From: Polaromonas sp.
GTDB taxonomy: Bacteria > Pseudomonadota > Gammaproteobacteria > Burkholderiales > Burkholderiaceae_C
NCBI GenBank assembly: GCA_004293655.1
Contig: RDZZ01000126.1
Coordinates: 1-32,838, forward strand
Direction of reading: 5' to 3'
Length of the DNA: 32,838 nucleotides
Numbering within the stretch: the first letter of the stretch is position 1; every line of letters begins with the position of its first letter. The translations under genes and the position numbers were made by a program. Of the stretch, positions 998 through 22,570 are shown piece after piece. The notes under the pieces were generated by a model. The model saw only the letters and a program-made list of their open reading frames with translations. It had not been told where the DNA came from and ran no database searches.

Positions 998-2056
998 TCA
1001 GGGAATCAGACCCATGGCGTGCATGTAGGCCGGGTGCAGCATCAGCTCGTCCCACTCGTGGGCGGGGGTGGTGGGCAGCAGGTCGAGCCGACGCATGTCG
1101 CTGGCTTCCAGGGCTTCCCACTGGCCTTTGAGCAGTGCCTCGGTCATGCCATCGAGCAGGTCATCGACAGCCTTGCCGCCATCCGTTGACTGGTTGCACA
1201 GCAGCACCATGTCGCAACCTGCGTTCAGGGCCACCACTGCGGCCTGGGTGTAGCTGACTTGCTGGCCGTCAATCAGGCGGGCACCGGCCATGCTGAGGTC
1301 ATCGCTGAAAATCGCGCCGCCAAAACCAAGCTGGCCACGCAGGATGTACGTCAGCCATTTTTCTGAAAAACCGGCTGGCCGGGCATCAACCTTGGGGTAG
1401 ATGACATGGGCTGGCATGACGCTGGCAAGGGTGGTGTTGAGCCACTCGTAAGGTGCAGCGTCGTCTGCCAAAATTGCCTTGAGACTGCGTTTGTCCACCG
1501 GAATTTCCAGGTGCGAGTCGGCCTTGACAAAGCCGTGGCCGGGGAAATGTTTGCCGCAGTTCATCATGCCGGCTTGCAGCAGGCCGTGCATCAGGCTTTT
1601 GGCGAGCAGCGTCACCACGCGCGGGTCGCGGCCAAAGGCGCGGTCGCCGATGACGCTGCTCGCTCCAAAGTCCAAGTCCAGCACGGGCGTGAAGCTGAAA
1701 TCTACCCCACAACTGCGCAGCTCGGCAGCCAGCACATAGCCGCAGGCGGTGGCGGCATTGGTGGCAGCTAACTGGTCTTTCGCCCACATCTCTCCAATCG
1801 CACGCATGGATGGCAGGTGGGTAAAACCGTCGGTTTTAAAGCGCTGCACACGCCCGCCTTCGTGGTCTACACAAATCAGCAAGTCCTCGCGCACGCTTTT
1901 GATGGCGGCGCACAGGCTGGCCAGCTGCTGGCGGCTTTGCCAATTGCGGGCAAACAAAATAATGCCGCCTGTGAGCGGGTTCTTCAGGCGGCGACGGTCG
2001 TCCTTGGTCAGGGCGGTGCCGGCGATGTCGATGATGAGCGGGGCGTGCTGGGTCAT
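998..2056 (-). CDS. nagZ: beta-N-acetylhexosaminidase (GH3)
   Basis: NagZ motifs ICVDHEGGRVQRF, NCGKHFPGHGFVKADSHLEIPVD, FSDDLSMAGA. Confidence 0.95.
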   Translation of the reverse strand: MTQHAPLIIDIAGTALTKDDRRRLKNPLTGGIILFARNWQSRQQLASLCAAIKSVREDLLICVDHEGGRVQRFKTDGFTHLPSMRAIGEMWAKDQLAATNAATACGYVLAAELRSCGVDFSFTPVLDLDFGASSVIGDRAFGRDPRVVTLLAKSLMHGLLQAGMMNCGKHFPGHGFVKADSHLEIPVDKRSLKAILADDAAPYEWLNTTLASVMPAHVIYPKVDARPAGFSEKWLTYILRGQLGFGGAIFSDDLSMAGARLIDGQQVSYTQAAVVALNAGCDMVLLCNQSTDGGKAVDDLLDGMTEALLKGQWEALEASDMRRLDLLPTTPAHEWDELMLHPAYMHAMGLIP

Positions 2057-2079
2057 GAATGTCCAATTACCATTAATTT

Positions 2080-2096
2080 ACTATTAATTTGATAGC
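2080..2096. repeat. 17-nt palindromic element copy (ACTATTAATTTGATAGC)
   Basis: Same length and half-site spacing as the other copies. Confidence 0.6.
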
Positions 2097-2177
2097 TATA
2101 AAGCCAATAGGAGATTGCGGTGGGGCTACTTTTTATCTGTATTTTTGTGACTACAAAGGTCGAAGGCAGTGAAGTCA

Positions 2178-2281
2178 TTCAACGCAGAGACGCAGAGAAC
2201 GCAGAGCAAGACGAGGGGGGAAATAATTTTTTGTCTTTCTCTGCGGTTCTCTGCGTACTCTGCGCCTGAAGCGTTGAAGGT
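2178..2281. repeat. GCAGAG-type imperfect inverted repeat, copy 1 (nagZ/acpS junction)
   Basis: Left arm ttcaacgcagagacgcagagaacgcagagcaaga pairs with right arm tctttctctgcggttctctgcgtactctgcgcctgaagcgttgaagg. Confidence 0.85.
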
Positions 2282-2298
2282 TTCCTGATTCCTCAAAG

Positions 2299-2700
2299 TT
2301 AGTAGTCACCTATTTTTTCTACAACACAGAAGCTGGCGGCGTAGTGGGTCTCGTCGGTCACGGTGATGTGGGCACTGAGCTGCTGGGCCTCAAACCAAAC
2401 CTTGAGCGCGCCGTGCAGAACAATCTCTGGCTTGCCGCTTGCAGCCTTGGCAATCTCGCAGTGGCGCCAGGTCATGGGCATGCGCATGCCGGTGCCGATG
2501 GCTTTGCTGAAGGCTTCTTTGGCTGAAAACCGGGTGGCCAGGTAGCTCACGCCACGGTCTGGCCAGCGCGCGCTGCGGTCACGCCAGGTAGCAAGCTCGC
2601 CATCACTGAGGATTTTTTCCGCAAAGCGCTCGCCATGCCGGGTCAGGCTGGCACGGATGCGGCGAATGTCACAAATGTCGGTACCAATGCCGTAGATCAT
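2299..2700 (-). CDS. acpS: holo-[acyl-carrier-protein] synthase
   Basis: [15 protein letters not shown] and [19 protein letters not shown] motifs. Confidence 0.95.
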
Positions 2701-2710
2701 AAGAAGAAGA

Positions 2711-2826
2711 AAACCTTCAACGCTTCAGACGCCGAGAACGCAGAGAAAACAAGCCAGAGGAAAACCTGACAATTCTCCGTTTTTCTCTCTGCGGCCCTCT
2801 GCGTTCTCGGCGCCTCTGCGGTGAAT
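2711..2826. repeat. GCAGAG-type imperfect inverted repeat, copy 2 (acpS/pdxJ junction)
   Basis: aaaccttcaacgcttcagacgccgagaacgcagagaaaa ... ttttctctctgcggccctctgcgttctcggcgcctctgcggtgaatg. Confidence 0.85.
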
Positions 2827-2853
2827 GACTGCGATTGCGGCCGCGAATCTCAT

Positions 2854-3651
2854 TCAAACACCCGCATGGTCAATACATCGCAAGTAGTCTTTGACCGTCG
2901 CCGCGTAGCCCAACTCCAGCGCATCGGCGACCAGTGCATGGCCAATCGACACTTCACGCACGCCGGGCACCGCCTTGAGGAATTCAGTCAGGTTGTCGCG
3001 GTTTAAGTCATGGCCCGCGTTGACGCCCACACCGACAGCGTGCGCAGCCAGCGCGGCCTGCGTGAAGTGGCTGAGCGCCTCGGCGGCCTGGGAGGTTCCC
3101 CAGGCGCGGGCATAGGTTTCGGTGTAGAACTCGACGCGATCTGCGCCGATGGCTTTGACCGCTGCCATGGCTGAAGGGGTGGGGTCCATGAACAGGCTGA
3201 CGCGAACATTGCGGTGCTGCGCGGCTGCAATCAACGGGGCCAGGCGTTCGGCATCTGCCGGAAAGCGCCAGCCGTGGTCGCTGGTGAACTGGTCTTCGCT
3301 GTCGGGCACAAAGGTGCACTGGTGCAGCGGCAGGCCGCGTGCCGTGAGGTCTCGCACGAAGTGCATCAGGTTCTGGTGTGGGTTGCCTTCAATGTTGAAC
3401 TCGCGGTCTGGCCAGTCTTTCATCATGGCGGCGATCTCGTACACATCAGCGCTGCGGATATGACGCTCATCGGGCCGGGGGTGTACGGTGATGCCCTGCG
3501 CGCCCGCTTCCAGGCACAGCCGAGCCGCACGCACGACATCGGGAATGCCAAGGTGGCGGGTGTTGCGCAGCAGCGCGACCTTGTTGACGTTGACCGACAG
3601 TGCGGTTTTGCCGGGGTGTTCTGGTGGGTGGGGGACAGAAATGTTTGGCAT
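2854..3651 (-). CDS. pdxJ: pyridoxine 5'-phosphate synthase
   Basis: LSVNVNKVALLRNTRH, GITVHPRPDERHIR, GVGVNAGHDLN motifs; start chosen at MPNISVPH, inside the longer ORF (3726). Confidence 0.93.
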   Translation of the reverse strand: MPNISVPHPPEHPGKTALSVNVNKVALLRNTRHLGIPDVVRAARLCLEAGAQGITVHPRPDERHIRSADVYEIAAMMKDWPDREFNIEGNPHQNLMHFVRDLTARGLPLHQCTFVPDSEDQFTSDHGWRFPADAERLAPLIAAAQHRNVRVSLFMDPTPSAMAAVKAIGADRVEFYTETYARAWGTSQAAEALSHFTQAALAAHAVGVGVNAGHDLNRDNLTEFLKAVPGVREVSIGHALVADALELGYAATVKDYLRCIDHAGV

Positions 3652-3668
3652 GGCGTGTTGCACAGTGT

Positions 3669-4418
3669 TTAAAGCGCTTGCAGGTCTATCATCATTTGCC
3701 GGGTTTTCAGGACTTTCACATCGCAATGGTAGTGCAGCAAGGCGCGGAGCTGGTGTTTGAGCTCGGGCAAGTGGTTGACACAGGCGTGCATGGTGTCTGC
3801 AAACGGCGAATCACCATCGAGTGCCTGCTGCAGTGCAAGCCACTGGGCACCGCTCAGGGCATTGCGGTCATCGTCGTGCGCCTCGCGCAGGCCAGCCTCG
3901 GCCAGCAAGACGTAAGGCGTATCTGGCTCAAGTGCAGCCAGTGTTGCGGTTTGCGTGTCCAGCACCGGCAACAGGCCAATGTCGCGCAGCAGGCGCAGCT
4001 CAAAGGCTCGCAGTGCGACCTGCAGCGTGTCGATGCGCTGGTTGGCCAGCAGTTGCACGGTGGCGGCATAGGCATCAAACAGCGCCGGGTGCGGGTCGTC
4101 ACGCGCGAGCAGCCGCATGAGCAACTCATTGAGGTAGTAGCCCGACAGCAGCGCGTCCCCCGTGGGCATGACATGGCCGCCCTGCCACTCGGCGCTTTTG
4201 AGGGTGCGAATCTCGGCATCACCGCCAAAAGACACATGCAGGGGCTGCAATGGCAACAAAATGGGCCGAAAACTCGAACTGGGCTTTTTGGCACCCCGCG
4301 CCACCAGTGCCACCCGGCCATGGGTGCGGGTGAACACCTCCAGAATCAGGCTGGACTCGCTCCAGTCATAGCGGTGCAGGACGTAGGCGGGTTCGTCTGA
4401 AATGCGCTTGAGAGCCAA
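3669..4418 (-). CDS. recO: DNA repair protein RecO
   Basis: [46 protein letters not shown] is RecO-like; position between era and pdxJ. Confidence 0.92.
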
Positions 4419-4457
4419 AATGGTTACTCAGACTGTCGATTCAAACACGGGGTCAAT

Positions 4458-4578
4458 AAACGCAGAGGCGCAGAGTCCGCAGAGACAGCAAGTCAGAGAA
4501 AAAACATTCCGAATATGTCCCTAAATTCATCTCTGCGGCCCTCTGCGTTCTTTGCGTCTCTGCGTTGAAAGTTTTCTT
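4458..4578. repeat. GCAGAG-type imperfect inverted repeat, copy 3 (recO/era junction)
   Basis: aaacgcagaggcgcagagtccgcagagac ... tctctgcggccctctgcgttctttgcgtctctgcgttgaaag; right arm ends just before the era stop codon. Confidence 0.85.
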
Positions 4579-4579
4579 T

Positions 4580-5644
4580 TTATTCATACCCAAAGGTCTT
4601 GACGCGCGCCTCATCGTCCGCCCAGCCCGACCGAACCTTGACCCAGATTTCCAGAAACACCTTGCCGCCCGTGAGCGCTTCCAGCTCATGCCGGGCTTCG
4701 GTACCAATGCGTTTGAGTTTTTCGCCGCCCTCGCCGATGATCATGCCTTTGTGACCGTCGCGTTCGACCACAATGGTTGCAGCAATCTTGCGCAGATTGC
4801 CCTCTTGCTCGTATTTGTCGATGATGACAGTCGATGTGTAGGGCAGCTCGTCACCCGTCAGGCGGAACAGCTTTTCGCGAATCATCTCGGCGGCCATGAA
4901 ACGGTCACTGCGGTCTGTCAACTCGTCCGCTGCATACATCCAGGGCTGCAGCGGCAGGTATTTTTCACAAATGCCAAACAGCCGCTCAATGTCTTTGGCG
5001 TTGTTGGCCGACATGGGTACAAACTCGGCAAAGCTGTGGCGCGCCTGCATGGCCTGAAGCCAGGGCGCGATGTCTGCGCGGCGGTGGATCAGGTCAAATT
5101 TGTTGGCCAGCAAAATGGCTGGGGTTTTGGCTGGCAGAAGACTCAGAACTTTTTCATCCGCCTGATTGAACTGCCCGGCCTCGACCACAAACACGATCAA
5201 ATCCACATCATTGACGGCGCCCACCACCGTGCGGTTGAGCGAGCGGTTCAGCGCATTGCCATGGCGAGTTTGAAACCCGGGTGTGTCGGCAAAGACAAAC
5301 TGCGTCGGGCCAACGGTGCGCATGCCGGTGATGCGATGCCGCGTGGTTTGCGCCTTGCGCGAGGTGATGCTGACCTTCTGGCCGACCAGTGCATTGAGCA
5401 GGGTTGATTTGCCCACGTTGGGCTTGCCCACAATCGCGATCAGGCCGCAGCGCTGGGTGGCTTCTGGCGGTTTGTCTGGCACCGCTGGCTCTGCAGCGCC
5501 CGCTGCCGGCGCCATGCTGGTGCGGGCAGACAGTGCCCTGGCCAGCATGGCATCGATAGCCTGTGCCTGCGGGTCAATTGCGGCCTGTGTCGTCTGCTCT
5601 GCGGGCGATGGCGTTGGGAAAGGCTTGCTTTTACGAGTAGTCAT
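4580..5644 (-). CDS. era: GTPase Era with N-terminal extension
   Basis: [26 protein letters not shown]-domain [15 protein letters not shown]; start set at MTTRKSKPF (ORF opens at 5716). Confidence 0.95.
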
Positions 5645-5739
5645 GGTCTGCCGATGTTGGGTTTTGTGCCTGAAAGGCTGTGATTCGTCATGAACGGCAG
5701 GCGCCAAGAACTGCACGTTGGTGTTGCTTTTTCTGGCGT

Positions 5740-6435
5740 TTAAAGCGTTTTTACAAAGGCCAGCATGGCGGTTGCGGCGGCCTGCTCACCAGCCCGGCGG
5801 GAGCCACCAATGCCCCGCTCGGCGCGCCGGTATTCAACAATCTCACACTCGACATCAAAGGTCTGCTTGTGTGCCGCGCCCTGTGTACCCACAACCCGGT
5901 AGATGGGCAGGTTCATCTTGCGGCCCTGCAGCCACTCCTGCAACTCGGTCTTGGGGTCTTTGCCTATCGCAGACATGCGGGCATTGATCTGGACGTCTTT
6001 GAAAAGGCGGCGCACCAGCGACGAAGCTGCATCGAAACCCGCATCAAGATAGACAGCGCCGATCAGAGCTTCGACCGCATCGGCCAGGATGGATGGGCGC
6101 TTTTGCCCGCCCGACCTGGCCTCACCCTCGCCCAGACGCATCATGTCTGGCAGCCCCAGCGATATGGCCACCTGGTGCAGCGTGTCTTGTTTGACCAGAT
6201 TGGCCCGCACTCTCGACAGGTCCCCTTCTGGCAAATCGCTCAGCTGCTCGTACAGCAAGCCTGCTACAGCCAAGTTCAGGACCGAATCCCCCAAAAACTC
6301 AATCCGCTCGTTGTGATCTGCCGAAAAACTGCGGTGTGTCAGTGCTTGCACCAACAGTTTGGGGTGGGTAAAGACGTGCTCAAGACGCTTTTGCAGCGCC
6401 AACAGATGAGGGCTTAAGGTTTGACTGGTGCGCAC
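5740..6435 (-). CDS. rnc: ribonuclease III
   Basis: [16 protein letters not shown] signature and C-terminal dsRBD; GTG start. Confidence 0.95.
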
Positions 6436-6486
6436 TTATTGTCTGTGGGGTACTTGATCGGCACTTGCTCGGCACTTATTTAACAT

Positions 6487-6762
6487 TCACTTGGCATTCA
6501 CTTCGGTCTTGTCGCCCTCTTTGGTCACTTCAAGGTCTTTACCCGTGATGGATTTGATGTCGTCAATTTGCGCAGCCTTGTCAAAAGTGCTGCGCACTTC
6601 CGCGACAGTGCCTCCATCCTTGGACTTGCTGGCAGCTTTGGTGATGGCTTGGTACTCGATCAATGTCGGGAAGACCTGCGCGGCAATGATTCCGGAAAAA
6701 GCCAGCACCCCGCCGACAAACAAAATACCGATAAACGAAACGCCGCGTTGTTGATTTCTCAT
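6487..6762 (-). CDS. DUF4845 domain-containing membrane protein
   Basis: MRNQQRGVSFIGILFVGG single-TM small protein between lepB and rnc, the usual betaproteobacterial position. Confidence 0.8.
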   Translation of the reverse strand: MRNQQRGVSFIGILFVGGVLAFSGIIAAQVFPTLIEYQAITKAASKSKDGGTVAEVRSTFDKAAQIDDIKSITGKDLEVTKEGDKTEVNAK

Positions 6763-6796
6763 GTGTTCGTCCTGCTGAAGTGTGAAGGTTTATTCT

Positions 6797-6840
6797 GAAT
6801 TTGTTATGAATTTATTATGAACTTGTTCTGAATGAACCTG
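6797..6840. repeat. short imperfect tandem repeat, 11-nt unit (GAAYTTGTTMT-like)
   Basis: gaatttgttat|gaatttattat|gaacttgttct|gaatgaacctg. Confidence 0.7.
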
Positions 6841-6848
6841 TGGTGCGA

Positions 6849-7844
6849 TCAATCAAAACCGCCAATACGCTTGAAGTTTCCGAAATTCATCCAGACAAAA
6901 AACGCTTTGCCGACGATGTTTTTCTCTGGCACGAATCCCCAGTAGCGCGAATCAAGGGAGTTGTCCCGGTTGTCGCCCATCATGAAATACTGTCCTTCGG
7001 GCACCTTGCAGACGACACCTTCGCTGCTGTAGCGACAATTTTGCTTGTTGGGAAAATCATCTGCACCCGGAATGAAGGCGGGCCTGTCATCGTCATTGAG
7101 CAAGCGGTAACGTCTGTCATTGGTGGTGATCTCTTCAAACTGTTTGGCGTACCGCATGCTGTCTTCGTCGAAAAAATCAGGCAGTGCGGTCTTGCTCAAG
7201 GGTTTGCCGTTGATGGTCAGCTTTTTATTCAGGTAAGCCACCTCATCGCCTGGCAGGCCGACGACACGTTTGATGTAGTCCAGGCTGGGTTTGGGGGGAT
7301 AGCGAAACACCATGACATCACCGCGCTGGGGGCTGTGGTTGTCCAGCACCTTGAGGTTGATCACGGGCAAGCGCACGCCGTAGTGGAATTTGTTGACCAA
7401 AATAAGGTCGTTGATAACCAAAGTCGGGATCATGGAGCCGGACGGGATTTTAAACGGCTCAAACAAAAATGAGCGGAGCAAAAACACCACAATAATGACC
7501 GGAAACAGCCCCGCAGTCCAGTCCAGCCACCAAGGCTGCATGATGAGGCGGCTCTGGGCCTCTTCGGTGCCCTGGTCGACCTGCGTAATGCCCATGCTGG
7601 CCAGCTCTTCTCGTCGCCTTGAGGCACTGGCCTGCAGCGCAGCGGCAGCCCGGTGGCGCTGTGGCAAAAAGTAAAACCGCTCAGCCACCCAGTAAATACC
7701 TGTGACCGTTGCAGCCAAAAAAAGTAACAGTGAAAAGTTGCCCTCCACCATGCCCAAATACCATGCAGCGCCATACCCTACGAACACGGCCAATACAACC
7801 GCCGTGATGGTGCCCATTGATTTTGTAAGCGTCGTGGACATCAA
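6849..7844 (-). CDS. lepB: signal peptidase I
   Basis: [10 protein letters not shown] catalytic Ser, [28 protein letters not shown] motifs. Confidence 0.96.
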
Positions 7845-9655
7845 TCTTCAACCTGCAAGATGGCCAGGAAGGCCTCTTGCGGCACTTCCACTGAACCGAT
7901 TTGTTTCATGCGTTTTTTACCCGCTTTTTGTTTCTCTAACAGCTTGCGTTTGCGTGAAATATCGCCGCCGTAACACTTGGCAATCACGTTTTTGCGCAGG
8001 GCTTTGATTGTCTCACGCGCAATAATGTTGGCCCCAATGGCCGCTTGAATGGCAACATCGAACTGCTGGCGCGAAATGATCTCGCGCATTTTGGCCACCA
8101 CTGCCCGCCCGCGGTAAGCCGACTGGCTGCGGTGAACAATGATCGACAGCGCATCGACCTTCTCGCCGTTCAACAAGATATCAACCTTCACCACGTCTGA
8201 TGCACGGAACTCTTTGAAGGTGTAGTCCATCGACGCATAGCCACGCGAGACGGATTTGAGCTTGTCAAAAAAGTCCAGCACGATCTCGCCCAGCGGCATT
8301 TCATAGGTCAGCATGACCTGCTTGCCGTGGTAGGCCATGTTCAACTGGATACCGCGCTTCTGGTTGGCCAGCGTCATCACAGCGCCCACGTAATCCTGCG
8401 GCATGTACAAATGCACGGTAACGATGGGCTCGCGAATCTCGTTGATGCGCCCGCCGTCCGGGATTTTCGATGGGTTTTCCACCATGATGAGCTCGCCGTC
8501 CGACCTGAGCACTTCATAGACGACGCTGGGCGCGGTGGTGATCAGGTCCTGGTCAAATTCACGCTCCAGTCGCTCCTGCACAATTTCCATGTGCAGCAGG
8601 CCCAGAAAGCCGCAGCGGAAACCAAAACCGAGCGCTTCGCTGACCTCAGGCTCGTAGTGCAGCGACGCATCATTGAGCTTGAGCTTTTCAAGCGCATCGC
8701 GCAGGGATTCGTATTCACTGGCCTCGGATGGGTACAGACCTGCAAACACCGCAGGCTGGATTTCTTTGAAACCCGGTAGTGCCTGGGTCGCCGTGAAGGC
8801 CGCGCCGCCGCTGCCTGGCTTGACAAGCGTTATGGTATCGCCCACGCGCGCAGCCTGCAGCTCTTTGATGCCGGCAATGACGAATCCGACCTCGCCAGCT
8901 TCAAGTGACGTGCGTGGTTCGTTGTGTGGTGTGAAAACACCCAGTTGCTCAGCGTTGTACATGGCTCCGCTGGCCATGAGTTTGATGCGTTCGCCCTTGG
9001 CCAGACGGCCATCGACCACACGCACCAGCATCACCACGCCCACATAAGCGTCATACCAGCTGTCAATGATCATGGCACGAAGCGCACCTGTGGAGTTGCC
9101 CTTGGGCGGCGGGATGCGCGCTACCACCGCCTCAAGAATGTCGTCGATACCCATACCGGTCTTGGCGCTGCAGGCAATGGCGTCGGTTGCATCGATACCG
9201 ATGACCTCCTCAATTTCCTGCCTTGCGTTGTCCGGATCAGCGTTCGGCAGATCCATTTTGTTGAGTACTGGGACGACTTCCACACCAAGCTCCAGCGCGG
9301 TGTAGCAGTTGGCGACCGTCTGCGCTTCTACGCCCTGCGATGCATCAACCACCAGCAATGCGCCTTCACAGGCCGACAGCGACCGGCTGACTTCATACGA
9401 AAAGTCCACGTGACCTGGTGTATCGATCAGATTGAGGTTGTAGATGTGGCCGTCGAGCGCCTTGTATTTGAGCGCAGCAGTCTGAGCCTTGATGGTTATG
9501 CCTCGCTCTTTTTCAATGTCCATGGAGTCAAGAACCTGCGCACTCATCTCCCGGTCTTGCAGGCCACCACAACGCTGAATCAAACGATCGGCGAGTGTGG
9601 ATTTACCATGATCAATGTGCGCAATGATCGAAAAATTTCTGATGTGATTCATCAA
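7841..9655 (-). CDS. lepA: elongation factor 4 (LepA)
   Basis: [32 protein letters not shown]-terminal [21 protein letters not shown]; 4-nt overlap with lepB. Confidence 0.98.
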
Positions 9656-9696
9656 CGGGAACGCCTAAGTGCTTGTTTGTATGACGACGAGAGCTC

Positions 9697-9714
9697 GGTC
9701 ATTCATCAATGACC
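9697..9714 (-). other. short perfect hairpin in lepA 5' region
   Basis: ggtcatt-catc-aatgacc, 7-bp stem and 4-nt loop. Confidence 0.6.
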
Positions 9715-9715
9715 A

Positions 9716-9747
9716 TAAAAAAGGGCGCGTCGGTGAGTGACGCGCCC
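9716..9747 (-). terminator. rho-independent terminator upstream of lepA
   Basis: Minus strand GGGCGCGTC-ACTCACC-GACGCGCCC followed by TTTTTT. Confidence 0.9.
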
Positions 9748-10252
9748 TGAACCAACAATCTATGGCAACTGCGAAGGTTGGATCTTCATTGTAGGCAAAA
9801 AGTTGAAAGCCGGCAGAGCCAAAATTCCCAAATGTTTGTCGTTGTGAACGAGCAACGAAAATCTTGTGTACAACTTGTCCACGATTTTAAACTGCGCAGC
9901 TCTGGACAACGTGTGGGCGATGTGTAGATCAAACAGTGGACAACCAAAATGACGCAATAGTGAAACGTGTTGCACGGTCTGATATGCCTGAAAGCTGTAG
10001 AGAACTTACTTTATTCTAATCAACTCCGTGGTTTTTGATTTTCACAGTTGGCGTTTACTAACAAATCTACTGAGAGATTCACACATCAAAACTGTCAAAA
10101 TAATTCAGAACCCAGAGAAAAAGCCACAACTTGACGCTTCAACCTCCCCCCCCCTTTTTTTCAGTAGGGATATACCCGATATGAAGGGTCTTGAGGTGAA
10201 CAAAGAGGGCCTGAAGAATCACGCATGCCCAATTCAATACCTCTTGCGCCCC

Positions 10253-11737
10253 TCAGCGTTGTGGGCGTATGAGTGCGTATTGCGCCCATTCACCACGTCT
10301 GAAAAGCACATTGATCGCTTTGGTCTTATCCACTTTTGCAAGCGCTGCTTCAAATTCTTTGACAGTACTGACTTCAATATTGGCAACCGACATGATCACA
10401 TCGCCCTCGCGCAGACCCGCCCGTGCAGCGGCACCCTCCGCCCCATCGACCTTGACGCCGCCTTTGATTTTGAGTTCTTTTTTCTGCGCGTCAGGCAGAT
10501 CACTCACGAGCAGTCCCAGCACCTGTGCTGCACCCGCAGCAGGTGCTTTGGGTTCAGGGGCTGATGCCTTGCGTACTGGCTTTTCAGGCTCCACTTCAGC
10601 AATGACAACCGACAGATCTCTGCTGGCACCGCGTCGGAACACAGTCACGACTGCCTTGGTGCCCGGTTTTACATTGCCCACCAGACGCGGCAAATCACTG
10701 GATTTTTCAACCGGTTTGCCATCGAATTTGGTAATGATATCCCCAGCCTCAATACCCGCTTTTTCTGCTGGCGCGCCACTCTCTACACCTCTGACGAGCG
10801 CACCCTGTGGCTTGCCCAGCCCAATGGATTCAGCAATTTCCTTGCTGACCGATTCAATCTGCACCCCAATGCGTCCCCGCACTACCTTGCCAGTAGCTCG
10901 CAACTGGTCAGCCACCCGCGCTGCTTCGTCAATGGGAATGGCAAACGAGATGCCCTGAAACCCGCCTGAGCGCGAATAAATCTGGCTGTTGATGCCAACG
11001 ACTTCGCCGCGCATGTTGATCAGCGGGCCACCTGAGTTGCCGGGGTTAATCGCCACATCCGTCTGGATAAATGCCAGATAGTCGCCTGTGTCACGCTGCT
11101 TGGCACTGACGATACCTGCGGTGACAGTGTTTTCAAGACCAAAAGGTGAGCCGATGGCCATGACCCATTCGCCAACCTTGAGGCGGTTCACATCGCCAGT
11201 TTTTACAGCAGGCAATCCAGTAGCTTCGATTTTTACAACGGCCACATCGCTGCGTTTGTCGGCGCCAATGATTTTGGCTTTGTACTCACGGTTATCTGTC
11301 AGGGTGACGATGACTTCATCAGCACCCTCCACCACGTGCGCGTTGGTCATCACAAAGCCATCTGAAGTCAGGATGAAGCCAGAACCGACGCCGCGAGGCT
11401 GCGCATCTTCTTGAGGCACCGGTGCCCTGTCCGAGCGTGGGCTTCGCGGCATGTTGGGTGGCACTGGGATTCCAAAACGCCGGAAAAACTCCAGCATTTG
11501 CTCGTCAACGCCGCCAGACGCACCAGTTTTCGCCTTTTCAGATGTTCTGATGTTGACAACCGACGGGCCGACCTGTTCCACAAGATCGGTGAAATCAGGC
11601 AGCGCACGCGTTTGCGCCCATAACGGCTCAGCAGGCAACAAAGTGGCGCTTGCTGCTATTGCCAAGAACCCTGCACTTAGGCAAGAACGCAGTGACTTCC
11701 AATTCAATTCAAACATCATCAACCTCGTTGTAAACAA
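10253..11737 (-). CDS. mucD: DegP/MucD-type periplasmic serine protease with two PDZ domains
   Basis: TNAHVVEGADEV, SDVAVVKI, INPGNSGGPL triad motifs, two PDZ-like regions, last in rpoE-rseA-rseB cluster; actual start may be MMFELN (11719). Confidence 0.93.
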   Translation of the reverse strand: MFTTRLMMFELNWKSLRSCLSAGFLAIAASATLLPAEPLWAQTRALPDFTDLVEQVGPSVVNIRTSEKAKTGASGGVDEQMLEFFRRFGIPVPPNMPRSPRSDRAPVPQEDAQPRGVGSGFILTSDGFVMTNAHVVEGADEVIVTLTDNREYKAKIIGADKRSDVAVVKIEATGLPAVKTGDVNRLKVGEWVMAIGSPFGLENTVTAGIVSAKQRDTGDYLAFIQTDVAINPGNSGGPLINMRGEVVGINSQIYSRSGGFQGISFAIPIDEAARVADQLRATGKVVRGRIGVQIESVSKEIAESIGLGKPQGALVRGVESGAPAEKAGIEAGDIITKFDGKPVEKSSDLPRLVGNVKPGTKAVVTVFRRGASRDLSVVIAEVEPEKPVRKASAPEPKAPAAGAAQVLGLLVSDLPDAQKKELKIKGGVKVDGAEGAAARAGLREGDVIMSVANIEVSTVKEFEAALAKVDKTKAINVLFRRGEWAQYALIRPQR

Positions 11738-14906: not shown

Positions 14907-16151
14907 TCAAACGCGCTTGAACACCAACGTGCCATTGGTGCCGCCAAATCCAAAGTTGTTTTTCACGGCGACATCGATACTCATATCGCGTGCGATATTC
15001 GCGCAAAAATCAAGATCACACGCGGGATCTTGATTGAAAATATTGATCGTAGGCGGGATTTTCTGGTGGTGCAAGGCCAGCACGGTAAAGACTGACTCAA
15101 TACCACCGGCACCTCCAAGCAAGTGGCCCGTCATGGACTTGGTCGAGCTGACCACCATACGCTTGGCATGGCTGCCAAACGCCGCCTTCACTGCATTGGT
15201 CTCGTTCAGATCTCCTAGCGGGGTAGATGTGCCGTGCGCATTGAGGTATTGAACCTCATCAGCATTGATACCTGCATTTTTCAAGGCCATCGTCATGGAC
15301 CGACAAGGACCATCGATATCCGGCGCCGTCATGTGATAGGCATCAGCGCTCATACCAAAGCCGACAATTTCAGCGTAAACCTTCGCACCGCGCGCTTTGG
15401 CGTGTTCGTACTCTTCCAGTACGAGCACACCACTGCCTTCCCCTAAAACGAAACCATCACGGTCTTTATCCCAAGGCCGAGATGCTGTTTTTGGATCCTC
15501 ATTACGGGTGGACAACGCCCGCGCCGCAGCAAAACCACCGATACCCAAAGGTGATACACAGGACTCAGCACCACCGGCGACCATCACGTCGCAATCACCA
15601 TACTCAATCATGCGTGCAGACAGGCCAATCGTATGCAGACCGGTGGTGCAGGCAGTCACAACGGCAAGGTTCGGGCCTTTGAAGCCGAACTTGATGGAGA
15701 CATGTCCGGAAGTCATATTGATGATGGATGCAGGCACAAAGAACGGTGAAATGCGGCGTGGGCCACGGTTGACCAGCTCTGAGTGCGTCTGCTCAATCAT
15801 GGGCAAGCCACCGATACCGGAGCCGATGTTGCACCCAATACGTGTTGCCATCTCACTGCCCAACGCATCACCCGTTGGTAGCCCGCTGTCTGCAACTGCC
15901 TGATATGCAGCAGCCAAGCCTAAATGGATGAAGCGGTCCATGTGTCGGGCTTCTTTTTCGGCAATGTAAGCCCCGACATCAAAGCCTTTGACCTCACCCG
16001 CGAATTTACACGCAAAATTGCTCGCATCAAATTGTGTGATGTGGTCAATACCAGATCGGCCTGCAAGCAGGCTATCCCACGATTGTGCAACGCTGTTGCC
16101 TACAGGGCTGATGCAGCCCAGACCCGTCACAACGACACGACGACGACTCAT
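14907..16151 (-). CDS. fabF: beta-ketoacyl-ACP synthase II
   Basis: [31 protein letters not shown] active-site Cys, [11 protein letters not shown]; start inside the longer ORF (16190). Confidence 0.97.
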
Positions 16152-16259
16152 TGCCTGATCCTGAAAAAAACCTGAAACAGCAGCCTGCAAGGGGCGTTGC
16201 TTTTCAGATTTGATGGTGGGTAAACAGGCAACAGAGTGCCACCTGCCTCAATTTCAGCC

Positions 16260-16672: not shown

Positions 16673-17419
16673 CTACATATACATTCCGCCATTCACGTGG
16701 ATTTCTTGCCCTGTGATGTAAGCGGCCTTGGGACTCGCCACAAAAGCTACAGCGTGGGCAATATCTTGCGCCTTGCCGAGATGGCCAAGAGGAATCTGCG
16801 CCAATAACGCTTTTTGTTGTTCCTCGGGCAATTTTGCTGTCATATCGGTCTCAATAAAGCCTGGCGCGATACAGTTGACGGTGATGTTGCGTGAACCCAG
16901 TTCACGCGCGAGCGCACGTGTCATGCCTGCCACACCAGCTTTGGCTGCTGCGTAATTGGATTGCCCGGCGTTGCCGGATGCCCCCACCACGGATGTGATG
17001 TTGATGATGCGGCCATAACGCTGCCTCATCATGGCGCGCATGACGGTGCGGCTCATGCGAAAAACCGCCTTGAGGTTGGTGTCAAGCACAGCATCCCAGT
17101 CATCGTCTTTCAAACGCATTGCCAGCATGTCGCGGGTAATACCTGCATTGTTAACCAGCACATGCAAGCCGCCGTGGTCTTTGACGATACGGTCAACCAG
17201 TGCCTGCGCTGCAATGACGTCATTCACATCCAGGTTCGCACCAGAGCAACCCGGAAAAGCAGCCAGGGTTTGGGTAATTTTGGCCGCACCTTCGTCGCTG
17301 GTAGCCGTTCCAATAACCACCAATCCTTTTTGAGCCAGCTCTAACGCAATGGCAGCGCCTATGCCGCGCGATGCACCTGTGACCAAGGCTACTTGACCTT
17401 CGAACTTTGATTCGCTCAT
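16673..17419 (-). CDS. fabG: 3-oxoacyl-ACP reductase
   Basis: SDR TGASRGIGAAIA, NNAGITRD, SNYAAAKAGVAGMTRALA. Confidence 0.97.
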   Translation of the reverse strand: MSESKFEGQVALVTGASRGIGAAIALELAQKGLVVIGTATSDEGAAKITQTLAAFPGCSGANLDVNDVIAAQALVDRIVKDHGGLHVLVNNAGITRDMLAMRLKDDDWDAVLDTNLKAVFRMSRTVMRAMMRQRYGRIINITSVVGASGNAGQSNYAAAKAGVAGMTRALARELGSRNITVNCIAPGFIETDMTAKLPEEQQKALLAQIPLGHLGKAQDIAHAVAFVASPKAAYITGQEIHVNGGMYM

Positions 17420-18366
17420 GCCAGCACCTCCTCTAAAGACGTCATTGATATGGGGTCAAACAGGGACAAGCCCGTCAACTCTGCGTCAATCCTTTTCACC
17501 AGACCAGCCAGCACTTTGCCCGGCCCACACTCCACAATATGGGTTACGCCCCGCGCTTTGATGGCGCGTACGCACTCTACCCACCGAACAGGGCCAAACG
17601 ACTGCCTGTAGAGTGCGGCTCGAATACGATTCACGTCGGTTTCTACGGCAACGTCGATGTTGTTGATGACCGGTATCAGCGGCGCAGAAAGTACGATGGC
17701 AGCTAATTTTTCTTTCAGCGCTTCGGCAGCTGGTTTCATCAGGCTGGAATGAAAAGGTGCAGAGACAGCCAGCAGCAAAGCGCGTTTGGCGCCATTGGCT
17801 TTCAAGATCTCGCAGGCCTTGTCAACAGCCATCTTGCTGCCAGCGATCACCGTTTGCAGAGGGTCATTGAAGTTAACAGCTTCGACCACTTCGCCGGAGT
17901 CAATGTCAAAAGTAGTCTGTGCTTCGAGACAAGCCTGCATGACTTTATGAGCGTCAAGCCCCAAAATGGCTGCCATCGCACCAGCACCCACCGGTACGGC
18001 GTTTTGCATGGCCTCGGCACGAAAGCGCACCAGAGGTACGGCTTGCGAGAGCGACAGCACACCAGAGGCTACCAGCGCACCATACTCGCCCAGAGAGTGC
18101 CCGGCCATGACCACGGGAGGAATCCCCGTCTCAGACATCCACGCTCGGTACGCAGCAACACCAGCGACCAGCATCACTGGCTGCGTGTTAGTGGTCAATG
18201 CCAGGGCTTCCTTGGGCCCTTCCTTGATCAACAAGGCCAGATCCTGATTCAGTGCATCAGAGGCTTCTGCCAATGTTCGGATGACCTCGGGGTGATCCCC
18301 CCAGGCATTGAGCATGCCCACCGACTGGGAGCCTTGCCCTGGAAAAACAAAAGCGAACGGTAACAA
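17416..18366 (-). CDS. fabD: malonyl CoA-ACP transacylase
   Basis: FVFPGQGSQSVGML, MAGHSLGEYGALVASG; the homologous part begins at TTG (18364-18366) with an upstream GGAG; 4-nt overlap with fabG. Confidence 0.93.
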   Translation of the reverse strand: MLPFAFVFPGQGSQSVGMLNAWGDHPEVIRTLAEASDALNQDLALLIKEGPKEALALTTNTQPVMLVAGVAAYRAWMSETGIPPVVMAGHSLGEYGALVASGVLSLSQAVPLVRFRAEAMQNAVPVGAGAMAAILGLDAHKVMQACLEAQTTFDIDSGEVVEAVNFNDPLQTVIAGSKMAVDKACEILKANGAKRALLLAVSAPFHSSLMKPAAEALKEKLAAIVLSAPLIPVINNIDVAVETDVNRIRAALYRQSFGPVRWVECVRAIKARGVTHIVECGPGKVLAGLVKRIDAELTGLSLFDPISMTSLEEVLA

Positions 18367-18383: not shown

Positions 18384-19031
18384 TCAGTTGAATGCAGGCG
18401 ATGAAGCTCGACGAACTCGGGCCACCGTTTTTTTTAAACCGCGCCTGACACAATAAGAGACAGCAAAAATGGCCAACCAGGGATCCATGAGGTAATCCCA
18501 AAGATTGGTGGACTCCAATATGCCAGCCGTCCAGGCAAGCAAGGCCAAACCCACCAGCGTGGGTAAAAGCCGCAAACCAAACCCCCATGCCAGCAGCGAT
18601 ACAAACAGCAAGCCAGCCCACAGGCCAGGCGCGCCCCATCCAGGGCGATAAGCATCCCAGTCACCCCAGCCAAGCGCCAGCGGATAGAGAAACAGCGCTG
18701 CAACGGCGACCACTGCCAACACTGCAGCGTGCTCGCGGCTGTACACAACGCAGCGTCCAGACAAGCGCTGGCGCAAACCAAGGCATGCGAGTACGACCAA
18801 GGTGATGCTCAAATCCGAGCTGACACCTCTGATGTACGCAAGAATCGGCAGCTGTGCGCCTCCAACGGGCAGCCACAACACCAAAAAACAGGCCAGAGTG
18901 AGGACTTTTCTGCATCGCAAGCTCAAGCGGGTGGCATTGAGCAGCCTCAGGCACCCGGCGCTCAGCACCAGGTCCAGACCCATCAAGGCTACAAAATCAG
19001 TGAGTGGGGGGAACATGGACAACATTGACAC
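18384..19031 (-). CDS. multi-pass membrane protein, unknown function
   Basis: 215 aa with several hydrophobic helices; overlaps the sialidase-like ORF by 35 nt, ends 18 nt before fabD. Confidence 0.75.
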   Translation of the reverse strand: MSMLSMFPPLTDFVALMGLDLVLSAGCLRLLNATRLSLRCRKVLTLACFLVLWLPVGGAQLPILAYIRGVSSDLSITLVVLACLGLRQRLSGRCVVYSREHAAVLAVVAVAALFLYPLALGWGDWDAYRPGWGAPGLWAGLLFVSLLAWGFGLRLLPTLVGLALLAWTAGILESTNLWDYLMDPWLAIFAVSYCVRRGLKKTVARVRRASSPAFN

Positions 19032-20442
19032 CGGTTGGCTGGACTGTGGGCGCAGGCTGCAAAGGGTCCAGGCGAATGTGCTTGATACGGGTACGGTGCC
19101 AGGTGTAGATCAAATGGATATAGCCGTCACGACTTTGCAGCAGATGAGGATAGGAGAACTCCAGCCAGCAACTCTCTGGGCTGCACAGCTGGCGTCTGGC
19201 GCTGGCAACGTAGGCAGAGATTTGATTCTGGGCCACGCCGCTGGCAGCGAGTTCGCGCCCGAGCACACGCTCATAGTCCTCAAAAGGAAGGCGGGTTGTG
19301 GGTGTGGCAGAAGACTCAACAATCCACTGGGAAGCGCCTTCAAAATACCCTTTTTTATCAGTCTGCGATCCGGGCTGTGGTTCAGTGCGTGATCCAGTCC
19401 GCAACAGCGCCAGAATTTGACGGTGGTTGGTTGCCGGGTTTAAAGCCAGCCACTGAACACCGCTGCGCGTGACCACACCAGCTATTGAGGCGTCCGGGTT
19501 GGGCCAAGCTGTGGCGCGAGTCGTTGTCCATGTTTTACCCGCATCATCTGTTGTGGATGCCATCAGTGCTTTTGCATTACCAGAGCGCATGTAAACATCG
19601 GCACTCGTGGGGCTTGTCACCAGAACCACGGGCTGAAGGCTGGTTTGACTGCCCGGAATTCGGACTTTATCGACAACGCGGCCCTGCGCGTCGATACGCA
19701 AAATTTCACCCAGCTTGGTGATGAACTCATGGTAGACAGGCAGGGCAATTTGGCCATCCGCCAGCGCCAGGGGCGCTCCTTTGACCAGCGTGCTGATGTT
19801 CAAAAACGGCGAGGTCACCAGACGCCGGGGCTGACTCCAACTGATGCCCTCATCTGTTGAACGCGACCAAGTGATGGCGCTGCCAGCCCAACCGCCTAGT
19901 GAAACATTGACCATCCACAGCCAGAGAGCGCCATCAGGTGCCCTGGCAATCACCGGATTACCTATTTTTTTGACATAACGCCAAAGACCGCGCTCGATTT
20001 GGTGTCTCTCAAAAAGCGTGCTTTCTACACCCCACTGAAGGGTTGCCGCATCCATGACGGCGGTTTGCACGCTCACATCTCCAGCTCCTTCTCTCGAACC
20101 GGAAAACCACACAGCCCGCAAACTGCCATTGAGCAACTCCACCATGGAAGCTGCATGTACCGCTTGTCCAGGTGTGCTGGAGACAAACTGCGCGTCCAGC
20201 ATAAAGTGTCCGTCAACAGAGCGCTGTAATGGTCTGGATGCGGAGTTTAGGGGGTTTGCAACAGGCTCAGATAGGCGTGCAGAAGCTTCTGGTGATTGTT
20301 GTGGTGATTGTGCAGCAGGCAAGCGTGTGACGGTTTTCCAGCCTGCAAGCGCAAAGGCAAGCACCAGCATCGCGGCAGTCAGATACTCAAAAATACCAAC
20401 GGGCTTGAATCTCAAGCGCCTCCCTTTGTGCTGTATTAGCAT
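18997..20442 (-). CDS. membrane-anchored sialidase/neuraminidase-like (BNR repeat) protein
   Basis: N-terminal TM; VHAASMVELLNGSLRAVWFSGSREGAGDV; BNR/Asp-box-like STDEGISWSQPR and TTDDAGKTWTT. Confidence 0.82.
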   Translation of the reverse strand: MLIQHKGRRLRFKPVGIFEYLTAAMLVLAFALAGWKTVTRLPAAQSPQQSPEASARLSEPVANPLNSASRPLQRSVDGHFMLDAQFVSSTPGQAVHAASMVELLNGSLRAVWFSGSREGAGDVSVQTAVMDAATLQWGVESTLFERHQIERGLWRYVKKIGNPVIARAPDGALWLWMVNVSLGGWAGSAITWSRSTDEGISWSQPRRLVTSPFLNISTLVKGAPLALADGQIALPVYHEFITKLGEILRIDAQGRVVDKVRIPGSQTSLQPVVLVTSPTSADVYMRSGNAKALMASTTDDAGKTWTTTRATAWPNPDASIAGVVTRSGVQWLALNPATNHRQILALLRTGSRTEPQPGSQTDKKGYFEGASQWIVESSATPTTRLPFEDYERVLGRELAASGVAQNQISAYVASARRQLCSPESCWLEFSYPHLLQSRDGYIHLIYTWHRTRIKHIRLDPLQPAPTVQPTGVNVVHVPPTH

Positions 20443-20467: not shown

Positions 20468-21445
20468 TCAATAATTGAGCAACACAGCACCCCAGGTGAA
20501 GCCGCCACCCACGCCTTCGAGCATCAAGGTGTCACCTTTTTTGATCTTGCCACTGCGCACTGCTGTATCCAATGCCAATGGAATGGATGCAGCCGAGGTA
20601 TTGCCATGCTGATCTACCGTGATGATCAGCTTTTCAAGCGGTACCTTCAATTTTTTGGCGGTGCTCTGCATGATACGGATATTGGCCTGATGCGGGATCA
20701 GCCAGTCAATATCGGCATCTGTCAAATAGGCTTTGGCCAGCGCTGCACGCGCCGCGCTTTCAAGCACGCCCACCGCCAGCTTGAAGACAGCCTGACCATC
20801 CATTTTGAGCAGCGGATCACCCAGCACTTTGCCGCCCGACACGCCGCCAGGCACGCACAAAATGTTGACATGCTTGCCATCGGCGTGCAAATCGCTTGCC
20901 AAAATACCAGGTGTCTCTGATGCTTGCAGGACGACCGCACCCGCGCCATCACCAAACAGCACGCAGGTGGTACGGTCCGAAAAGTCGAGAATGCGTGAAA
21001 AAACCTCTGCGCCGATCACCAGTGCCTTGGTAGCCGTACCACTCTTGATGAGCGCATCAGCAACAGTCAGCGCATAGACAAAACCACTGCAAACCGCTTG
21101 CAGGTCAAAAGCCGGACAACCTGCCATGCCGAGTTTGTTCTGCAAAATGCACGCTGTGGAAGGAAACACCATGTCTGGTGTGGATGTCGCCACAATGATG
21201 AGATCAATATCAACGGGCTCTAGTCCAGCGGCCTCCAGTGCCTTTTTGGCAGCCTCTACACCCAGATCACTCGAACACACACCTGCTGCCGCAAAGTGGC
21301 GGGCGTGAATACCTGTGCGCTCGACGATCCAGTCATCAGAGGTTTCTATGCCTTGGGCTGCAAGTTCAGCGGCCAAATCAGCGTTGGTCAGCCGACGCGG
21401 GGGCAAGTAGCTGCCGGTACCGGTGATTCGTGAATATCTGGCCAT
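20468..21445 (-). CDS. fabH: beta-ketoacyl-ACP synthase III
   Basis: [28 protein letters not shown] active Cys, [27 protein letters not shown]. Confidence 0.97.
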
Positions 21446-21457
21446 GAATAAAATCCG

Positions 21458-22570
21458 TCAGTGGGTCGGGGCAAAGACCGTTGCATCCGTTGATATCAAG
21501 TAGCTTGTGGGCACAGCTACAACTGCGGGCAACACTTTGGTCATGACCAGCAAAGGAGCTGCGTGCGTGATGCGTTCGTACACTTTTTCAAGCAGGCTGT
21601 TTCTCGCCGCATCATAAGCTCGATTGAGCGCACGCTCGAAGGCAAAGGCATCGGCAGAGCCATGGCTTTTGAACACCAAGCCCTGCAAGCCCAGTAAAGC
21701 CGCACCGTTGTAACGCCTGTGATCCATTCTGCTCTTAACCGCACTTAGAACCGGATAAGCAACGACACCTGCCATTTTAGTGAAAATGTTGCGTGAAAAC
21801 TCTGTCTTGATGAAACTGCCGATCATACCGGCCAGACCTTCGCTGGTTTTCAAGGCCACATTACCTACAAAACCATCACACACCACAATGTCTGTGGTGC
21901 CTTTGAATATATCGTTGCCTTCAACATTCCCGTAGAAATTGAGATCGCCGGAGTTGGAGGCTGATCGCAACAGTTCACCTGCTTTTTTAATGACTTCACT
22001 GCCTTTTATCGCCTCTTCGCCTATATTGAGCAGCCCGACGCTGGGCGTGAGATTCTCACTGATGGCAGCCACGAGGGCAGATCCCATCACAGCAAACTGG
22101 AGCAAATGGTCTTCGGTGCAATCGACGTTGGCACCGAGATCAAGCACGGTGGTGGCACCGCCCACTGCATTTGGCAATTGGGTCGCAATGGCAGGTCGGT
22201 CTATGCCGTCCATGGTTTTAAGCACGTATCGCGCTACGGCCATGAGCGCACCGGTGTTACCAGCAGAAACGGCCGCTTGTGCGCTGCCATCTTTGACTTG
22301 GTTGACAGCCACACGCATGGAAGAGTTTTTCTTTCGGCGCAATGCGATTTCTATTGAGTCGTCCATGGTGACGACTTCACTGGCCTCGACCATCCGGCAG
22401 CGCGGGTGTGCCAGCAGTTGGGCATACAGTGCGTGAGACTGCAAGACCGGGGTTTGTCCTACGAGTAGCAGTTCGGCATCCGCGTGGTTGCTCAAAAAAG
22501 CCAGACTGGCTGGTATCGTGACAACAACGCCAAAGTCACCGCCCATAGCATCAACGGCGATCCTGATCAT
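21458..22570 (-). CDS. plsX: phosphate acyltransferase PlsX
   Basis: [44 protein letters not shown]. Confidence 0.97.

Follow-up and report, generated by a model that had tools for sequence, protein, structure and literature searches.

Results

The window analysed here, a stretch of 32,838 nucleotides from Polaromonas sp. (assembly GCA_004293655.1, contig RDZZ01000126.1), carries on its minus strand a fab operon in which the order plsX-fabH-fabD is interrupted by two overlapping genes. The features of the locus, with their positions in the window and the evidence for each, are as follows.

21458-22570, minus strand: plsX (open reading frame)
20468-21445, minus strand: fabH, the neighbour upstream of the pair in the operon (open reading frame)
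18997-20442, minus strand: gene of the KdoH1-like subunit, 481 amino acids, ATG start, with one N-terminal membrane helix and a BNR_2 sialidase-fold beta-propeller (Pfam, AlphaFold, conservation in 39 Polaromonas genomes)
20329-20394, minus strand: N-terminal membrane anchor of the KdoH1-like protein, residues 17-38 (hydropathy and helix in the model)
19150-19152, minus strand: codon of Tyr431, invariant in 55/55 sequences and at the position of the Tyr in the GH33 sialidase motif GYSCL (alignment)
18384-19031, minus strand: gene of the KdoH2-like subunit, 215 amino acids, GTG start, about seven membrane helices, without a Pfam or NCBIfam family (open reading frame, AlphaFold)
18474-18506, minus strand: signature NLWDYLMDPWL, residues 176-186, which marks the KdoH2-like family across Pseudomonadota (alignment)
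18997-19031, minus strand: 35-nt overlap of the KdoH1-like and KdoH2-like genes (open reading frame coordinates)
17416-18366, minus strand: fabD, the neighbour downstream of the pair, TTG start (start read directly from the sequence)
16673-17419, minus strand: fabG (open reading frame)
14907-16190, minus strand: fabF (open reading frame)

The sialidase-like gene lies 25 nt from fabH, the membrane gene lies 17 nt from fabD, and the two overlap by 35 nt, exactly as given in the preliminary description of this DNA; from this spacing, co-transcription of the pair with the fab genes is plausible. The apparent TTG start of fabD (18364-18366) is preceded, 8 nt upstream and inside the 17-nt gap, by a GGAG Shine-Dalgarno sequence. 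A TTG start of fabD also occurs in several Polaromonas genomes that do not have the pair. A crude promoter scan, which says little, detected no candidate site on the minus strand, and no RNA element was detected at the locus, the Rfam matches in the window being two tRNAs only.

The 481-residue protein matches the Pfam family BNR_2 (PF13088) with 246 bits (E 6e-73, cut-off 31.4). Its AlphaFold model (pLDDT 88.8) consists of an N-terminal helix, residues 17-38, followed by a beta-propeller whose best PDB matches in Foldseek are GH33 sialidases (E 1e-15); according to both hydropathy and the model, the protein has a single N-terminal transmembrane segment, which is a feature of KdoH1. In an alignment of 55 sequences, E118, E239, R286, and Y431 are found in all 55, R341 in 54, and D122 in 52. 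The nucleophilic Tyr of GH33 enzymes corresponds in the alignment to Tyr431, and two members of their carboxylate-binding Arg triad to Arg286 and Arg341; when the alignment is read by eye, Asp122 falls on the GH33 acid/base and a His (H96, 55/55) apparently takes the place of the first Arg of the triad. The BNR_2 match and the predicted fold bear out the earlier claim of a membrane-anchored BNR/sialidase-like protein. A search of a plasmid collection returned distant BNR_2 proteins (27%) only.

For the 215-residue protein, neither Pfam nor NCBIfam gave a match, and Foldseek found nothing in the PDB (best E 3.7). In agreement with the multi-pass partner claimed earlier, the AlphaFold model is polytopic, all-helical with about seven membrane helices (pLDDT 94.8); simple hydropathy gives five membrane segments. 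The family alignment contains a near-invariant signature, NLWDYLLDPWL, in the segment just before the last helix. The absence of this family from Pfam and NCBIfam is a new point, and the signature makes the membrane subunit recognisable where these databases have no model.

We surveyed 87 Polaromonas genomes, in 80 of which fabH was detectable. The sialidase-like gene is present in 39 of the 80, in 38 cases as the next gene after fabH and in one at the end of a contig, and wherever the contig of a carrier continues, the membrane gene and then fabD follow. In the other 41, fabH is followed by fabD, with a gap mostly below 140 nt. Two longer gaps, of 387 nt in G256 and 288 nt in G259 (loci L136 and L152), still encode the N-terminal helix of the sialidase-like protein, e.g., LLLVAAFVLAGWKIFNRLPA; because they retain a remnant of the gene, the absence of the pair from these two genomes is a loss, and the plain junctions in 41 genomes, two of them with a remnant, therefore indicate that the pair was lost repeatedly. 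In a FabH+FabD tree, all 36 carriers tested fall, together with six non-carriers, into one group of 42, the defining branch of which is weak; five changes of presence or absence suffice, three of them forced by well-supported branches. The sialidase-like gene of G284 (L185), a one-contig assembly, lies in three overlapping pieces in different frames, where sequencing error or decay is possible. G312 (L187), a Polaromonas without the pair, encodes elsewhere a distant BNR_2 protein (about 27-31% identity), near which no KdoH2-like gene was found.

The occurrence of the pair at the same site in 39 Polaromonas genomes leads us to reject an isolated event, and the proposed survey of the fabH-fabD site in Burkholderiales was thus answered positively for this genus; among the 251 genomes drawn from the family, no other genus was seen with the pair there. 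The pair is under purifying selection: among eight pairs of relatives, dN/dS ranges from 0.11 to 0.25 in the sialidase-like gene and from 0.15 to 0.46 in the membrane gene. This selection, along with the stable position in the Polaromonas clade, largely refutes a random insertion, in line with what had been argued from the tight spacing. Patchy presence, the remnants in two genomes, and the frame-broken copy in G284 might still suggest a selfish or decaying insertion without function, but the dN/dS values of both genes and the invariance of the active-site columns leave this explanation scarcely credible.

Profiles of the two proteins retrieved the genes side by side in other Burkholderiales, in other Gammaproteobacteria, and, beyond that class, in at least one more class of Pseudomonadota. 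With a single exception, cut off at a contig end, all loci that the membrane-protein profile detected have a sialidase-like gene next to the membrane gene. At all 78 loci matched by both models the two genes share a strand and overlap or almost meet, the spacing ranging from -131 to +95 nt. The distance matrices of the two subunits correlate (r 0.96; 0.91 outside Polaromonas), and a branch with 98 SH-aLRT support divides the BNR_2 proteins into those with the membrane partner and those without it. LPS-type or envelope genes lie beside or near 16 of the 20 pairs surveyed: genes for a GT9 (heptosyltransferase), a GtrA, and an ArnT/PMT-like protein beside the pair in nine Burkholderiaceae, among them the nearest relative outside Polaromonas, G116; a PMT gene alone near it at two loci; sulfatase-fold (LtaS-like) genes near it at four; and two GT9 genes with other glycosyltransferases and O-antigen ligases at one. 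At L094, L099, L108, and L110, an LtaS-like sulfatase-fold membrane protein replaces the ArnT-like neighbour, possibly as an alternative modification partner.

These data bear on whether the first gene encodes a true GH33 exo-alpha-sialidase acting on host or environmental sialic acid, which is the name that automated annotation would give it. The fold, the BNR_2 match, and the conservation of the Tyr and two Arg positions would suit such an enzyme; nevertheless, it is highly improbable given the membrane anchor, the strict pairing with a polytopic partner, the apparent His at the first triad Arg, and the LPS-type neighbours at most loci examined.

The position between fabH and fabD calls for another alternative, in which the pair functions within the fatty-acid operon, sensing or adjusting the envelope lipid supply whatever its glycan substrate. 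The stable position in 39 genomes and the tight spacing agree with such a role and, since lipid A synthesis uses up acyl-ACP, co-expression of the pair with the fab genes would make sense. However, no pair outside Polaromonas was ever seen in a fab operon where the neighbours were examined, and, following repeated losses, the fab operon of 41 Polaromonas genomes lacks the pair. We regard this role as very unlikely, and the tie with lipid synthesis advanced in the preliminary description turns out to be weak, in that the fab-operon location is confined to one clade and about half of the Polaromonas genomes keep an intact fab operon without the pair.

The GT9-GtrA-ArnT-like cluster is present in Polaromonas at a locus separate from the pair (contig 26 of the source genome, L195, about 1339-4904). 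The ArnT-like gene was found in 34 of 36 pair carriers versus 1 of 41 non-carriers, and the sole exception among the latter is G256, which keeps a remnant of the pair. This pattern is strong, but because the carriers are related, phylogeny confounds it and independent contrasts are few (3-5, nearly all in the same direction; sign test, p 0.25). Co-inheritance of the pair with an unlinked cluster that elsewhere adjoins it is a new point. A Kdo transferase of the WaaA type (PF04413) is encoded in all 49 good-quality Polaromonas genomes and in the source genome as well; no LPS structure for Polaromonas was found in the papers searched.

The combination of a membrane-anchored sialidase-like protein and a membrane partner recalls a known system. 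The Kdo hydrolase of F. novicida was reportedly described by Zhao and Raetz in 2010 as a sialidase-like protein with one helix together with an adjacent polytopic protein, the latter said to have seven predicted membrane segments. This hydrolase is a two-protein complex (PMC3342949) that acts on the periplasmic side (PMC12856342), and its genes in H. pylori are HP0579/HP0580 (PMC12342981, PMC3245313). The order in F. novicida is FTN_0493 mtn, FTN_0494 kdoH2, FTN_0495 kdoH1 (BNR protein), and FTN_0496 slt (PMC2928790, PMC4688374, PMC6587636).

Homologues of both subunits are encoded in G1046, a genome of 2.1 Mb and 30% GC from the same class as the source (profile E 1.5e-63 and 6.3e-12). For the G1046 sialidase-like protein, a BLASTP search with P0001 gave E 2e-31, and hhalign linked the membrane family to G1046 with E 7e-19. 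The G1046 pair lies between mtn (NCBIfam equivalog, 274 bits, cut-off 169) and slt. This slt, on the kdoH1 side, agrees with that of F. novicida in being encoded on the opposite strand and in having the same length (660 codons versus 1,977 bp). The G1046 locus departs from that of F. novicida in two respects: slt and kdoH1 are separated by a Frag1-family gene, and kdoH2 and mtn by a second slt-type gene. DUF3281, a Francisella lipoprotein family, was not found in G1046, nor in the controls; because it has no DUF3281, G1046 may be a relative of Francisella and not Francisella itself. At locus L127, two slt-type transglycosylase genes (5029-7008 and 9612-11591) bracket the Kdo-hydrolase-like pair, and a Frag1/DRAM-family gene lies directly upstream.

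Both Polaromonas subunits are thus homologous to a pair whose mtn/slt locus resembles FTN_0493-0496, and this homology and synteny suggest common descent with the characterised subunits. Overall identity to the Francisella-like pair is only 23% for KdoH1 and 16% for KdoH2, and the residues of the G1046 sialidase-like protein that align with Asp122 and Arg341 are N and K, respectively. Since the identity is low and the separating branch very long, substrate drift is possible. One may accordingly ask whether the pair is a KdoH-like hydrolase that works by the same membrane mechanism on another 2-keto sugar, such as Ko, outer-core Kdo, or an O-antigen nonulosonic acid. The long branches, the several well-separated partner-bearing clades, the identity of only 23%, and the outer-core or O-antigen neighbours at some loci (an O-antigen ligase in L111) speak for this view. 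Both subunits and the invariant columns are nonetheless common to the Francisella-like pair, and the Kdo transferase is universal in the good-quality Polaromonas genomes, so that we consider another 2-keto sugar unlikely.

Discussion

Based on these comparisons, we propose that the pair is most likely a two-component Kdo hydrolase of the KdoH1/KdoH2 type, a reading to which we assign a probability of about 70%. In this model, the N-terminal helix would anchor the sialidase-fold subunit to the inner membrane and the propeller would face the periplasm, where the most probable reaction is cleavage of the outer Kdo from Kdo2-lipid A or core-lipid A that has just been flipped. Sialidase-type chemistry is predicted: Tyr431 would be the nucleophile and Asp122 the acid/base, and the Kdo carboxylate would be bound by Arg286 and Arg341. 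Since Kdo and sialic acid are both 2-keto acids, a common carboxylate-binding site is sensible. The polytopic subunit may present the lipid-anchored substrate, activate the propeller, or both, and the two subunits would each be needed. In one Polaromonas clade, the pair seems to have become unlinked from the GT9-GtrA-ArnT-like LPS cluster and to have settled between fabH and fabD. It is probably transcribed there with plsX-fabH-fabD, and this location would couple its expression to acyl-chain supply.

Our tentative working hypothesis, which we hold with less than even confidence, is that GT9-GtrA-ArnT-like-KdoH1-KdoH2 represents an ancestral "trim-and-cap" LPS module of Burkholderiaceae, in which the outer Kdo would be removed before the ArnT-like enzyme adds a polyprenyl-linked sugar to the exposed inner core or lipid A. 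The hydrolase half would have moved to the fab operon in Polaromonas, the two halves remaining linked in function and therefore being kept or lost together.

To our knowledge, most descriptions of outer-Kdo trimming to date come from Francisella and Helicobacter. Our results suggest that it is common in Burkholderiales and other Pseudomonadota, where it may work together with ArnT-like glycosylation of lipid A or the core. Genes usually named "exo-alpha-sialidase" and "hypothetical membrane protein" thereby become candidates for an LPS-core enzyme in environmental bacteria. The new functional link announced in the preliminary description stands as far as a selected, coupled pair of a glycosidase-fold protein and a membrane partner is concerned; it is not new in its components, both of which are homologous to what is most probably the known KdoH1/KdoH2 type. 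What is new is the wide spread of the pair in Pseudomonadota and its location in the fab operon, whereas the type of enzyme is known.

With the GH33 exo-alpha-sialidases (PDB 4FJ6, 4BBW, 1EUR), the sialidase-like protein has in common the propeller fold and, by alignment, the Tyr nucleophile and two of the three triad Arg positions, at an identity of 10-15% in structural alignments; the N-terminal membrane anchor, the constant polytopic partner, and the apparent His in place of the first Arg set it apart. The partnerless BNR_2 proteins of Burkholderiaceae (L029-L033) contain the same Pfam domain but form a separate clade (98 SH-aLRT) with no KdoH2-like gene adjoining. The closest likeness is to KdoH1/KdoH2, with adjoining genes for a BNR/sialidase-like and a membrane protein and a predicted location in the inner membrane. 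The Polaromonas pair, known here from its sequence, differs from KdoH1/KdoH2 in its low identity and in belonging to the fab operon of a free-living betaproteobacterium, and the Burkholderiaceae pairs found elsewhere differ from those of Francisella and Helicobacter in their linkage to GT9-GtrA-ArnT-like genes.
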